Shown piece by piece: positions 6,226-11,974 of a stretch of 64,000 nucleotides of DNA. Origin of the DNA: an uncultured Phycisphaerales bacterium (GTDB lineage: Bacteria > Planctomycetota > Phycisphaerae > Sedimentisphaerales > Anaerohalosphaeraceae); the NCBI GenBank assembly GCA_937868095.1, contig CALMLO010000027.1, positions 1 to 64,000 on the forward strand. The letters run 5' to 3'. How positions within the stretch are numbered: the first letter of the stretch is position 1; every line of letters starts with the position of its first letter. The position numbers were made by a program, and so were the translations under genes. A model generated the notes under the pieces. The model saw only the letters and a list, made by a program, of their open reading frames with translations. It made no database searches and was not told the DNA's origin.

Positions 6226-7062
6226 GTGGCAGACAAGAAAAGGATAAAAACAGAAACGAATGGATTCACCCTCATAGAACTGCTGGTAGTCATTGCTATT
6301 ATTGGATTGCTGCTGTCAATTATTCTGCCGTCGTTGAGGTTGGCCAAGGAGCAGGGCCGCAAAATTGTCTGCAAGAGCAATTTGTCCCAGGTCGCCAAAG
6401 CGGTCGAACTGTACGAGATGCAGTATAATTATAAGCGGTTTGTTATCCGCAAGGATGCATCAGAGACCGATGATTACTGGATGGGCAAACTGGCACCTTT
6501 TTTGGGTGATGTCTATTATGCCCAGCAGTATCAGGAGGGCAAGAAGATTGATATTCTGCTGTGCCCATCGGCTCCGTACGACCGCTTTCAGGCAGACTCA
6601 AGCGGGCCGTATGCCAATCCGTCAGGCCAGTACGGCACGGCGAGGACGCCGTGGTCGTGGGCCCGTTCTACAGGCCGTTCCACCATCGGCAGCATCGGCA
6701 TCAACGGCTGGGTGGGCCTGGATTATTACTATGAAACCGATTCGATGTATGCGCCGTACTTTTTCAAAGATTGGATGGATATTTCGCCGACTGTGCCTCT
6801 TTTTGCCGATTGCGTCTGGACAATCGGCTGGCCTCGCGGGAACGATGTGCCGCCGGAGACCCTCCAGGGTTCTACCGCCGCTCAGCTGCCCGCCAACAGT
6901 GACAATATGCGGCGGTTCTGCATCGACCGGCATAGCAGACAGATTAACATCATTTTCCGCGATTTGCACGCGGATACGGTAAAACTGGAGGCCTTGTGGA
7001 CACTGCACTGGAGCAGAGGGTATCAGGTTCCCAGTCCGCTGCCGCGGCTTCCAAACAAGTAA
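6226..7062 (+). CDS. Type II secretion-like pseudopilin
   Basis: A 278-residue protein with a prepilin signal: after a short basic leader, G-FTLIELLVVIAIIG (about 13-27), cut by prepilin peptidase before F. The rest is a globular periplasmic domain. Near the C-terminus His-X9-Asp-Leu (HSRQINIIFRDL) is a variant of the H-X9-DG signature of planctomycete pseudopilins, and ALWTLHWSRGY matches the usual end of that family. GTG at 6226 has GGGAGA at 6215-6220. These genes sit singly beside secreted-protein genes in planctomycetes, and their partner machinery is not established. Confidence 0.85.
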   Translation: MADKKRIKTETNGFTLIELLVVIAIIGLLLSIILPSLRLAKEQGRKIVCKSNLSQVAKAVELYEMQYNYKRFVIRKDASETDDYWMGKLAPFLGDVYYAQQYQEGKKIDILLCPSAPYDRFQADSSGPYANPSGQYGTARTPWSWARSTGRSTIGSIGINGWVGLDYYYETDSMYAPYFFKDWMDISPTVPLFADCVWTIGWPRGNDVPPETLQGSTAAQLPANSDNMRRFCIDRHSRQINIIFRDLHADTVKLEALWTLHWSRGYQVPSPLPRLPNK

Positions 7063-8697: not shown

Positions 8698-10578
8698 GTG
8701 AAACAAATGACAACAACGGTCGGGTGGATGGTTCTTTTGCTGGGAGTCGCGGCTTGGGCGGCTATAGTCGGACCTTATACTCCGGATGCTTATACGCTGC
8801 ACCTGTATCATTTCGAAGGCGATGGAAGCGATGCTGTCTCGAACAATCCAATTCATCTGACCCTTGCGTATGGAGCCGCTGCATCGGCGAGTTCTTATGA
8901 GGGGTTCGGCACGGCGCTGAACACCTATGAGGGCTCTTCGAACACAACGGCAAACCAGCCGTGTGCCTATAGTGATGAGGTAAGTATTAATAATCTGACC
9001 GGTTCGGATGGTGCCTTCACCTTTGAAGCCCTGATTCGGCCTGATGTGGAGTGGAATGCGATTCCCAACCATATGCAGATTGTCTGCGGCGATAATGACA
9101 GCGGACAAAGCCGAGGGTGGCAATTTCGGGTTAATACGTCCGGCGAACTGGAGTTTATCAAACTGACCGGTACGCAGGAAACCTTTGTGGCGGCTATTCC
9201 TTCCAGCGGCGAACATGCCTGGCAGGCGGGACAGTGGTACCACGCAGCCGTCACCTATAATGGACAGGAAAATACAGCCGGCAATCTGAAATTTTACTGG
9301 ACGCGGCTGGATTCCGGCGCGGCCGAGGCGGCCCTGCTGGCTTCCTTTCAAATGCAGGCCGATCTGGACAGGTCTGTCGCCATTGATTTTTCTGTGGGCA
9401 ACGATGCACGTGATATGTGCGGCGAGAACTTCGAGGGGCTGGTGGATGAAGTGCGCATCAGTTCGATTGCCCGCGGAGCAGAGGAGATGCTCTTTACAGC
9501 GGGCAGCCCGCCGCCGGTGATTGTCAGCCACCCCGCTGATGTGCGGGTGCGTGCTCCGGCTGCTGCGGTCTTTGAAGTGGTATTTGAAAGCCCGACACCG
9601 CCGACTGTCATTTGGTATCGTTCTGCGGATGCCGGCGAAGGGCCGGTGGATACCACCGCTCCTCGCATTACTGCGCAGGTTCTTTATGATGACCAGACGC
9701 AGCGGTATTCAGCCCTGCTGGTTATTGAAGAAACTCAGATAAGCGACAGGGGGCAGTACAACTGTCTGGTTTCCAATGAAAGCGGTGTATGGCGATTGAG
9801 CAATCTTGCCTCACTTACGGTAGAAGGACTGGCGGCCCGATGGACGCTGGATGCGGCGGATTATACAGATGGTTTGTATGTGGATACAGAGACGGGGTTG
9901 TCAGCTGCGGCTGCGGGTGTACCGCTGTTTGTTGAAGGAGCGGACGGCACGCCGGCTGGAGCTGTTCAGGTGAGCAGCACGTCGGGCTGGGCGGTGACGG
10001 AGCCGCTGAATGCCGCCTTGGACACAGGGGCGATGACAGTCAGTGTCTGGGCGAAGTGGCAATACAGCCCGATCTCGACGGCGGATGTCCAGATGGATGC
10101 GTGGCCGGAGGAGACAATGCTTGCCGCACCCGAGGGGATTTCTTCACAAGGCCGCTGGCAGCACATTTGTGTGGTCTATACAGACACCACGGCCCAGATA
10201 TATGTGGATGGCCTTTTGCAGGCGGAAGGAGATTATGCCCTGCCATCCGATACCACGGCGGTGCTGACGCTGGGCAGCGGTGTAGGGGGCCAGAAGATTT
10301 TTGAAGGGATCCTCGATGAGTTCCGGATTTATAATTATGCCTTCACGGCCGAAGAGGCGGCGCAGGGTTATTATGAAATGACCGGCGAGGGGGTCTGTCT
10401 TCTGTCTCATACGAGTGCGTATGACTTGACAGGCCCGTGGGGTGTGCCGGATTGCGTGGTGGATTTGTATGACCTGGCGGCCTTTGCTGCTCAATGGCTG
10501 ACGGCGTATGAAGGGGACGATTTTGCCGGCTTTGCCGCCCAATGGATGCTCTGCACGCTCTATCCGAACTGCGATTGA
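8698..10578 (+). CDS. Secreted LamG/Ig protein, paralog 3, with doubled tail
   Basis: A 626-residue exported protein; the signal peptide spans about 1-21 from GTG 8698 (GGGGG at 8686-8690). Its LamG domain (about 22-265) shares LTGSDGAFTFEA with the paralog at 3069. An Ig-like domain (about 275-380; GQYNCLVSN) and a shorter LamG domain (about 385-560) follow. The tail has Cys567-X18-Cys586, then VVDLYDLAAFAAQWL, and a second shorter copy DDFAGFAAQWML ending with two more cysteines (619, 625). It is the last gene of the cluster before a weak terminator. Likely a surface glycan-binding protein. Confidence 0.82.
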   Translation: MKQMTTTVGWMVLLLGVAAWAAIVGPYTPDAYTLHLYHFEGDGSDAVSNNPIHLTLAYGAAASASSYEGFGTALNTYEGSSNTTANQPCAYSDEVSINNLTGSDGAFTFEALIRPDVEWNAIPNHMQIVCGDNDSGQSRGWQFRVNTSGELEFIKLTGTQETFVAAIPSSGEHAWQAGQWYHAAVTYNGQENTAGNLKFYWTRLDSGAAEAALLASFQMQADLDRSVAIDFSVGNDARDMCGENFEGLVDEVRISSIARGAEEMLFTAGSPPPVIVSHPADVRVRAPAAAVFEVVFESPTPPTVIWYRSADAGEGPVDTTAPRITAQVLYDDQTQRYSALLVIEETQISDRGQYNCLVSNESGVWRLSNLASLTVEGLAARWTLDAADYTDGLYVDTETGLSAAAAGVPLFVEGADGTPAGAVQVSSTSGWAVTEPLNAALDTGAMTVSVWAKWQYSPISTADVQMDAWPEETMLAAPEGISSQGRWQHICVVYTDTTAQIYVDGLLQAEGDYALPSDTTAVLTLGSGVGGQKIFEGILDEFRIYNYAFTAEEAAQGYYEMTGEGVCLLSHTSAYDLTGPWGVPDCVVDLYDLAAFAAQWLTAYEGDDFAGFAAQWMLCTLYPNCD

Positions 10579-10603
10579 AAGATTTCCAAAGGGAGTTTAA
10601 GAC

Positions 10604-10635
10604 AACTATAGTCCGTAAATGATAGTTTTTTTTGT
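10604..10635 (+). terminator. Weak intrinsic terminator of the secreted-protein cluster
   Basis: AACTAT (10604-10609) pairs with ATAGTT (10622-10627), and the T-run continues to 10633. The 6-bp stem is AT-rich, so efficiency is uncertain, but it lies 26 bases after the last LamG gene. Confidence 0.5.
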
Positions 10636-10655
10636 AATTGAAAAAGGTTTTTTTG

Positions 10656-10684
10656 TTGACCTTTCTGGGGAGAAGGTCTATAGT
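10656..10684 (+). promoter_or_regulatory. Near-consensus sigma-70 type promoter
   Basis: TTGACC at 10656-10661 and TATAGT at 10679-10684 are separated by exactly 17 bases. Each box matches 5 of 6 consensus bases. It lies over 450 bases before the next coding gene, which suggests that it drives an RNA of its own. Confidence 0.75.
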
Positions 10685-10690
10685 TTGTAT

Positions 10691-11010
10691 AGAAGATGTT
10701 TTATGAAACCTTTCTGATGTTTTTGTTCTTGGCTTGTTTTAGAACTTGAAAGAAACAAAAACAGCGGAAAATGGGGGAGTAGGGGTAAGGGGGCTGAAAG
10801 ACCAAAAAGATATTTTTGGTCTTGAATAAGCAAGGCAAAGGACGTAAGGGGTTAATCTTTCAGTTTTTGCCGAAAAAGAGGCAGAGGCGGGGACTTTGGA
10901 AAGTTCATTGGTGAAGAGGGCTGTGAGGTCGAAATTGTAGATAATTCAAATATTTTCTTCTCATCACCCTCCTCCGAAGCCAGATTCCGAATAGGAGTCT
11001 GGCTTTTTTC
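10691..11010 (+). ncRNA. Candidate structured noncoding RNA, about 320 nt
   Basis: The 559-base gap 10579-11137 has no credible gene. Between the promoter at 10656-10684 and the terminator at 10978-11009 lie several paired elements: AGACCAAAAA (10799-10808) with TTTTTGGTCT (10813-10822) around a GATA loop, enclosed by CTGAAAG (10794-10800) with CTTTCAG (10857-10863). A purine-rich block lies at about 10765-10795. A 17-codon hydrophobic frame (10696-10749) begins almost at the expected 5' end and may be a leader peptide or chance. It does not resemble tmRNA, RNase P RNA, 6S or SRP RNA. Alternatively it is a long 5' region of an operon ending in attenuation before the NYN gene. Confidence 0.5.
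10978..11010 (+). terminator. Strong intrinsic terminator
   Basis: An 11-bp stem, 10978-10988 with 10994-11004 (one G-T pair), around the loop GAATA, is followed directly by six T residues (11004-11009). It ends the candidate RNA and insulates the NYN gene. Confidence 0.85.
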
Positions 11011-11137
11011 TTATTTTAGGGGGTGGTAGAATAAGAAAGCGCAAGAAAACAGAAGAAGAAAATTGCGGCAGGGAGTTTTGCAGATACAATACGAGCCGGT
11101 CTGATATTTTATCAATTTTTTTTCTAAGGATTTATCG

Positions 11138-11974
11138 ATGACAGAGCAGAATAACAGTTTGAAAGTGGGGGTGTATGTAGATGCCGCCTATGTTTATAAA
11201 AACGGCGGCCGCGGGATGCAGTACAATATCCTGCGGGAGTTCGCCTGCCGGGAGGGAACGCAGGTTATCCGGCTGAATGCCTATGTAAGTTTTGATGCAG
11301 ACCGAGCGTCTGATGATATGATTTTTGGGGCCAGTGCCAAGAAGTTTCACTCTTTTCTGCGGGATTTGGGCTATAAAGTCATCATCAAAGAAGTCAAATG
11401 GTTTGTGGACGAGGAGACCGGCCAGCGGTTCGGCAAGGCCAATGCGGATATGGATTTGGCTGTGGACCTGCTGATTCAGTCGGAACATTTGGATAAGATT
11501 GTGCTGGTTTCCGGGGATGGCGATTTTGTCAAGGTGGTTAATGCCGCTCAGAATCGCGGCTGCCGGGTGGAGGTCATTGCTTTTGACAATGTATCCGGGC
11601 GGCTCAAAGAAGAGGCGGACCAGTATTTTTCGGGTTATGTGATTCCCAATCTGCTGCCGACGGAAAGCGAGGTGCCCTGGGGGCAGATTGGTTCTCTTGT
11701 GCGCGGCACGTGCTCCTACTTCAATAAAGAAAAGGGCTTCGGTTATTTGCGGTATTTGAAGGAAATCTCGCCCTATCTTTGGATTACCGATATTCAGCGT
11801 CCGGGCAGTCCGTACGGGATGGCCTATTTTCGGGCCGCCAGTCTGATGAATGCCAATGGGGTGGACCTGCCGAGCTACAATCATGTTTTTGAGTTTGAAC
11901 TTCTTCCGCCGCAGCGGGATGATCAGCTGCCGATAGCCAGCAATGTTCGGCTGGTCTCTGTTATTCCCTATTGA
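11138..11974 (+). CDS. NYN-domain RNase-like protein with cold-shock-like C-terminal part
   Basis: A 278-residue cytoplasmic protein. Residues about 8-165 are an NYN (LabA/DUF88, PIN-like) nuclease domain: GVYVDAAYVY near the start, KANADMDLAVDL and VSGDGDFVKVV supply the acidic metal-binding residues. After a linker, YFNKEKGFGYLRYL (about 193-206) resembles the RNP1 strand of a cold-shock/OB fold, so the protein probably binds and may cut RNA. It stands alone after a strong terminator and is convergent with the receptor gene at 11995, 20 bases apart. The target is unknown. Confidence 0.78.
   Translation: MTEQNNSLKVGVYVDAAYVYKNGGRGMQYNILREFACREGTQVIRLNAYVSFDADRASDDMIFGASAKKFHSFLRDLGYKVIIKEVKWFVDEETGQRFGKANADMDLAVDLLIQSEHLDKIVLVSGDGDFVKVVNAAQNRGCRVEVIAFDNVSGRLKEEADQYFSGYVIPNLLPTESEVPWGQIGSLVRGTCSYFNKEKGFGYLRYLKEISPYLWITDIQRPGSPYGMAYFRAASLMNANGVDLPSYNHVFEFELLPPQRDDQLPIASNVRLVSVIPY

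Follow-up and report, generated by a model that had tools for sequence, protein, structure and literature searches.

A small-RNA family of Sedimentisphaerales marked by a conserved C-rich tract that abuts an intrinsic terminator

Introduction

Small RNAs that expose an unpaired anti-Shine-Dalgarno sequence are known in Alphaproteobacteria, where the alpha-r14/NfeR1 and CcsR 'cuckoo' RNAs occur in multiple copies and combine an ultraconserved, unpaired CCUCCUCCC sequence with differing stems (PMC10746234). Transcription of the CcsR copies uses an alternative-sigma promoter, and a DUF1127 protein is associated with them (PMC10253847). In Campylobacter, CJnc230 (FlmE) presents a single-stranded anti-Shine-Dalgarno sequence between stem-loops and acts on mRNA ribosome-binding sites, while CJnc170 is a FliA-dependent small RNA (PMC11187230); small RNAs that depend on sigma-28 are also known in E. 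coli (PMC10578931). Moreover, phage-encoded anti-sRNAs of EHEC counteract small RNAs of the host (PMC4104026). For Planctomycetota, a search of a large open-access library retrieved no regulatory small RNA that has been characterised.

Here, we analyzed an intergenic gap in a 64,000-nt stretch of DNA (the window; contig CALMLO010000027.1, positions 1 to 64,000) from an uncultured Phycisphaerales bacterium. We consider it probable that this gap holds a paralogue of a trans-acting small-RNA family, read by sigma-28 or sigma-70 RNA polymerase, whose seed blocks translation initiation without Hfq. By analogy, the RNA would work most like the alpha-r14/NfeR1 and CcsR RNAs, since it shares with them the multiple copies, the conserved anti-Shine-Dalgarno tract and the diverging stems (PMC10746234). 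It differs from them in that each Sedimentisphaerales RNA carries one 20-nt tract, which covers the start codon too and abuts the terminator; instead of three hairpins each with CCUCCUCCC, there is the single tract ACCCUCCUCCG in an RNA made of a variable 5' part and then the terminator. The Sedimentisphaerales copies do not match the Rfam covariance model of those RNAs, belong to a different phylum, have a sigma-28 promoter motif and share an identical seed with viral contigs, and no DUF1127 association, as known for CcsR, was noticed for them.

With CJnc170 and the sigma-28-dependent RNAs of E. coli, the family shares control by the flagellar sigma factor, here as judged from the promoter motif; unlike them, it is found chiefly in the intergenic region next to panB, and a flagellar role for it would be hypothetical. 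No sequence relation to these RNAs was found through Rfam and, to our knowledge, none is known. The likeness to CJnc230 lies in the single-stranded anti-Shine-Dalgarno stretch, predicted here to act on ribosome-binding sites, whereas the short CCUU motif, the RpoN dependence and the co-expression with flgE are features of CJnc230 alone. As in EHEC, mobile elements would encode small RNAs that act in the host RNA network, but the putative viral copies described below match the host RNA in both strand and seed.

Features of the locus

The gap spans 559 bases (10579–11137), between the end of an open reading frame at 10578 and the start of an NYN open reading frame at 11138. A preliminary description of the window had placed in it an RNA gene with its own promoter and terminator, unassigned and distinct from the housekeeping RNAs, and this was borne out, the signals lying where it had located them. 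The features, all on the forward strand, are as follows:

10656–10684, forward: sigma-70-like promoter, TTGACC (10656–10661), 17-nt spacer, TATAGT (10679–10684); 10 of 12 consensus matches
10691–11010, forward: predicted transcript of ~320 nt, inferred from the positions of promoter and terminator
10691–10953, forward: variable 5' part with the stems 10794–10863; 42–50% identity within the genus
10696–10749, forward: 17-codon frame MFYETFLMFLFLACFRT, probably non-functional; no ribosome-binding site visible upstream, no counterpart seen in G002 or G004
10954–10978, forward: conserved single-stranded seed UUUCUUCUCAUCACCCUCCUCCGAA, with its core UCAUCACCCUCCUCCG at 10961–10976
10976–11010, forward: intrinsic terminator; stem 10976–11006 of 13 pairs (6 G-C) followed by six T; lower stem GAAGCCAG/CTGGCTT, upper stem variable with compensation
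11138–11974, forward: NYN-domain protein (PF01936), a neighbour outside the RNA system

The predicted fold of the 320-nt RNA is moderately stable, with an energy of -100.8 kcal/mol against -82.9 ± 5.1 in shuffles (z = -3.5). Promoter-like sites in the gap stretch number 5, with 1.5 ± 1.6 expected, and terminator-like sites 2, with 1.7 ± 1.2 expected; judged without conservation, the promoter and terminator of the gap are weak signals, near chance level. It is because the 3' end is conserved among relatives, and not because of these scores, that it stands beyond chance.

Conservation of the 3' module

The 3' end of the RNA (10954–11010) consists of the unpaired C-rich tract CUUCUCAUCACCCUCCUCCGAA abutting the intrinsic terminator. 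Its last ~60 nt (about 10954–11017) recur in 97 of the 98 related genomes searched, other loci included, mostly at about 80–96% identity and usually in several places per genome. The 5' part, in the within-genus alignment of G000 (the window genome), G002 and G004, retains only the identity given above, and elsewhere gives scattered weak matches. The conserved core is the C-rich tract before the terminator, which had gone unnoticed in the preliminary description; the nested stems that it mentioned at 10794–10863 are not the important part and are not conserved in G002 and G004 of the same genus, and the proposal of a leader peptide lost its ground as the 17-codon frame has no visible counterpart there. 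A trans-acting, base-pairing small RNA is expected to keep its unpaired seed better than the flanks and to have a promoter and an intrinsic terminator of its own, and both features are apparent in the sequence.

Aligned copies have the common layout TTTTCATCACCCTCCTCCGAAGCCAG, loop, CTGGCTTTTTT. In most bacterial copies the lower stem hardly varies, suggesting an additional constraint such as, perhaps, the binding of a protein; the upper stem differs with compensation. In the terminator alignment, 94.7% of the cells are paired and 17 are changed on both sides, compared to 6.6 in shuffles (none of 500 shuffles was as high). In the copy set collected by pattern, the pattern itself dictates the exact bases; the 98-genome search, the covariance-model counts and the comparison of weak members are free of this bias.

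Distribution of the family

A covariance model of the module (R1) found matches at E ≤ 1e-3 in 67 of the 75 Sedimentisphaerales genomes that are at least 90% complete, with 1–6 copies each. Across 294 genomes of the phylum, strong matches were confined to the order, those outside it being weak (E of at least 2.7e-5) and nearly all on the terminator alone. An exact match to TTCATCACCCTCCTCCGAA, the 19-mer found in the sister copies, is present in 62 of the 75 order genomes (backward control, 0), and the core 16-mer is exact in 5 further Sedimentisphaerales of the phylum sample, again with 0 for the backward pattern, and in 2 of the 294 sampled genomes outside the order. Motif loci in named records likewise belong mostly to Phycisphaerae, Sedimentisphaerales and Anaerohalosphaeraceae; nearly all of the genomes are metagenome assemblies. 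G000 itself has three exact copies, on C3, C27 and C66, and a fourth member at C26:23943-24018, in which the seed ATCACCCTCCTCCGAAGC is followed by a different, GC-rich terminator. In keeping with the unassigned status proposed earlier, neither the gap RNA nor the other copies reached gathering for any family of Rfam 15, and the panB-type copy gave nothing up to E 5. SdsR/RyeB, the best weak Rfam score, was rejected (21.1 bits against a gathering threshold of 38; E 0.27). The module would be the signature of a previously uncatalogued small-RNA family, absent from Rfam 15.

The breadth of this distribution bears on the earlier proposal that the RNA and the adjacent NYN protein form a pair. The two do adjoin in G000, G002, G003 and G004, that is, in four of the five genus genomes with a strong NYN match, but the NYN gene of G005 lacks the RNA as a neighbour, and strong NYN matches are found only in those five genomes while the RNA family spans the order. 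The idea fails because the adjacency is not kept and because the family is otherwise unlinked to NYN, and we regard such a pair as scarcely credible.

Repeated stem-loops could also arise from a REP-like mobile hairpin that RAYT transposases disperse, and on a Nealsonbacteria contig (L075) two copies flank a putative RAYT-like protein. However, no RAYT-like open reading frame was found near any other copy, the copies per genome are few, and synteny with panB and the promoter are conserved. For Sedimentisphaerales, this reading is largely refuted, and overall we hold it to be very improbable.

Some copies were observed in other bins or in tandem. In two Patescibacteria MAGs (L075, 1 to 4310, the Nealsonbacteria one, and L157), the RNA has strong sigma-70-like promoters and is flanked by glycosyltransferase-like and glycosyl-hydrolase-like genes. 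Tandem copies ~200–250 nt apart occur in L109, where each has a sigma-70-like promoter, and in L250. Two Aenigmatarchaeota-binned contigs (L082 and L104) also have tandem copies, which are doubtful because a repeated exact sequence of 25–40 nt can join unrelated contigs in metagenomes; in L104 the motif is flanked by a CsrA-like and an arginyl-tRNA-synthetase-like open reading frame, and a chimeric assembly is possible, as these are joined at the motif.

Promoters and sigma factors

Seventy-three copies are divergent from panB, a putative ketopantoate hydroxymethyltransferase gene identified by sequence, and the panB-divergent copy is probably the ancestral one. The motif TAAAG-N17/18-CGAT lies upstream of 70 of these 73, and of 83 of the 136 copies overall (1.3 in shuffles), with near-fixed spacing. 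The panB-type copies thus carry the TAAA ... CGAT pattern of a sigma-28 promoter and are candidate members of a sigma-28 regulon; the spacing exceeds that of the E. coli consensus by up to 2 nt. A FliA/WhiG sigma factor scored above the cut-off in 71 of the 75 order genomes, and its gene in G000 is preceded by the same TAAAG-N17/18-CGAT motif, as is fliA by TAAA...CGAT in 5 of 8 relatives, which suggests autoregulation of fliA by sigma-28. This fliA motif, observed in L268 (minus strand, 7619), L347–L350 and L352, usually lies 125–160 nt before the start codon.

In G041, which has no FliA match above the cut-off, the single RNA copy has TTGACA-N17-TATACC directly before the seed, and the predicted RNA, of ~60 nt, comprises little beyond seed and terminator. 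Sigma-70-like sites precede 22 of the 47 bacterial copies without TAAAG, compared to 8.6 expected, and the window copy is of this kind. Similar TTGACG boxes in G002 and G004 sit ~100 nt nearer the motif than the window promoter, so that the type of promoter is kept while its position is not. The window copy is a lineage-specific paralogue: conservation extends neither to its 5' part nor to the stems or the putative leader peptide.

Copies on viral contigs

In weakly scoring bacterial members the C-rich tract is retained while the terminator stems are unrelated. When the 20-mer alone, without the stem, was sought in viral contigs, 45 loci were recovered (about 0.1 chance matches expected, by our estimate), and at each of them, as judged by eye, the seed is followed by a stem-loop of its own sequence. 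A strict automatic rule recognised a terminator in 29 of the 38 distinct viral copies, against 6 of 760 control positions; as the tract is fixed by the search pattern in this set, the independent evidence is its presence and its constant place before a terminator. Twelve of the 38 distinct copies start at most 15 nt from a stop codon, in a 3'-UTR position. Because the stems change while the tract stays, the single-stranded tract is taken to be the conserved function, and the terminator need only terminate; nothing speaks more strongly for the tract as the functional part than its constancy where every other part may vary. A search of cultured phages and plasmids gave no meaningful match.

Alternatively, the viral copies may be attP sites, left by phages that integrate at the 3' end of the small-RNA gene and carry that end with them. 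Tyrosine-recombinase-like open reading frames lie 0.2–1 kb from the motif in L164, L166 and L169, the one in L169 being open-ended and recombinase-like by inspection, and this origin may fit a few of the eight contigs with a GCCAG stem. Most viral copies, however, do not match a host gene end, because their terminator stem is unrelated to that of the host; many follow directly on stop codons, as counted above, some lie in structural-gene regions, and no recombinase-like open reading frame was found near the bacterial copies. Attachment sites may account for a few of the viral copies, but for the viral set as a whole this explanation seems improbable to us. In L310 and L325, the viral seed and terminator come directly after the 3' end of an apparent tRNA gene. 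A coding reading was also considered, as the motif can encode FSSPSSEA in open reading frames of three viral contigs, and was ruled out by the invariant third codon positions and by the location of the RNA mostly outside open reading frames.

Predicted pairing and proposed mechanism

The complement of the tract, CGGAGGAGGGUGAUGAAAAG, reads GGAGG, a 6-nt spacer, AUG and AAA (SD-N6-AUG-AAA-A), and would thus be an ideal Shine-Dalgarno sequence with its start codon. Among 375 predicted gene starts in 464 kb of G000, the seed preferred signal-peptide genes more strongly than did any of 50 control seeds whose left half had been scrambled (difference of -2.4 compared to a scramble mean of -1.1 kcal/mol), and the preference again exceeded all 50 for 342 genes in 400 kb of G010; both the signal-peptide predictor and the start calls are crude. 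This effect is modest and suggestive: among strong-SD genes of G010 the difference was not significant (p = 0.22, rank test), and in a general test of initiation regions 6 of 30 scrambles did as well as the real seed. In its own genome, the seed complement had no mRNA match with fewer than 3 mismatches, the RNA genes themselves excepted, and among the 3-mismatch sites inspected, with one strand translated, no gene start was evident. Hfq, which an Hfq-dependent small RNA would need in its organism, was detected (PF17209) in none of the 75 order genomes, with positive controls detected in 5 of 14, and the family does not appear to be of that kind.

The tract could instead be a site for an RNA-binding protein, or a Rho- or antitermination-type site joined to a terminator, and not a seed for pairing. 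Such a role would agree with an exact tract kept in bacteria and viral contigs beside differing terminator stems, with its nature as a YC-rich single strand and with the invariant lower stem of the bacterial copies. On the other hand, an aid to termination would be expected at many genes, whereas there are 1–6 copies per genome, most of which have a promoter of their own with no intervening gene; moreover, the complement forms a well-spaced Shine-Dalgarno sequence and start codon. We therefore see such a site as rather unlikely.

The seed complement, the signal-peptide tests and the absence of Hfq are the basis on which a trans-acting, Hfq-independent repressor of initiation was therefore adopted. 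The family, its distribution, its promoters and terminators and the invariance of the seed amid stem change are documented at the sequence level, and we infer from there the pairing with mRNAs and the targets. The working part would be the 20-nt unpaired seed (C)UU(U/C)UCAUCACCCUCCUCCGAA, directly 5' of the intrinsic terminator. It is predicted to pair with translation initiation regions composed of the Shine-Dalgarno GGAGG, a 6-nt spacer and AUGAAAA, covering both Shine-Dalgarno and start codon, so that ribosome loading would be blocked without Hfq. The ancestral panB-side gene would be read by FliA/WhiG (sigma-28) RNA polymerase, and an active sigma-28 programme would lower the expression of a group of mRNAs in which those for secreted proteins may be overrepresented; sigma-70 would read paralogues like the window copy, and the viral copies, many in 3'-UTR positions, may supply the same seed during infection.

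More tentatively, and with distinctly less confidence, the family can be seen as a near-universal initiation silencer of Sedimentisphaerales, sigma-28-controlled and Hfq-independent, whose seed was acquired by viruses and Patescibacteria to rewire host translation. If true, a class of (secreted-protein) mRNAs would be down-regulated at once by the antisense of a generic Shine-Dalgarno-plus-start site. The family is directly testable because it is widespread, near-invariant over the order, linked to a known sigma factor and endowed with an explicit seed, in bacteria without recognisable Hfq. The seed shared with many viral contigs may serve to mark viruses whose hosts are these uncultured bacteria, and is a case of possible mimicry at the RNA level. 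The window itself encodes, at 6226–7062, a prepilin-type pseudopilin-like protein (GFTLIELLVVIAIIG), which belongs to a class of secreted proteins that the seed might target.
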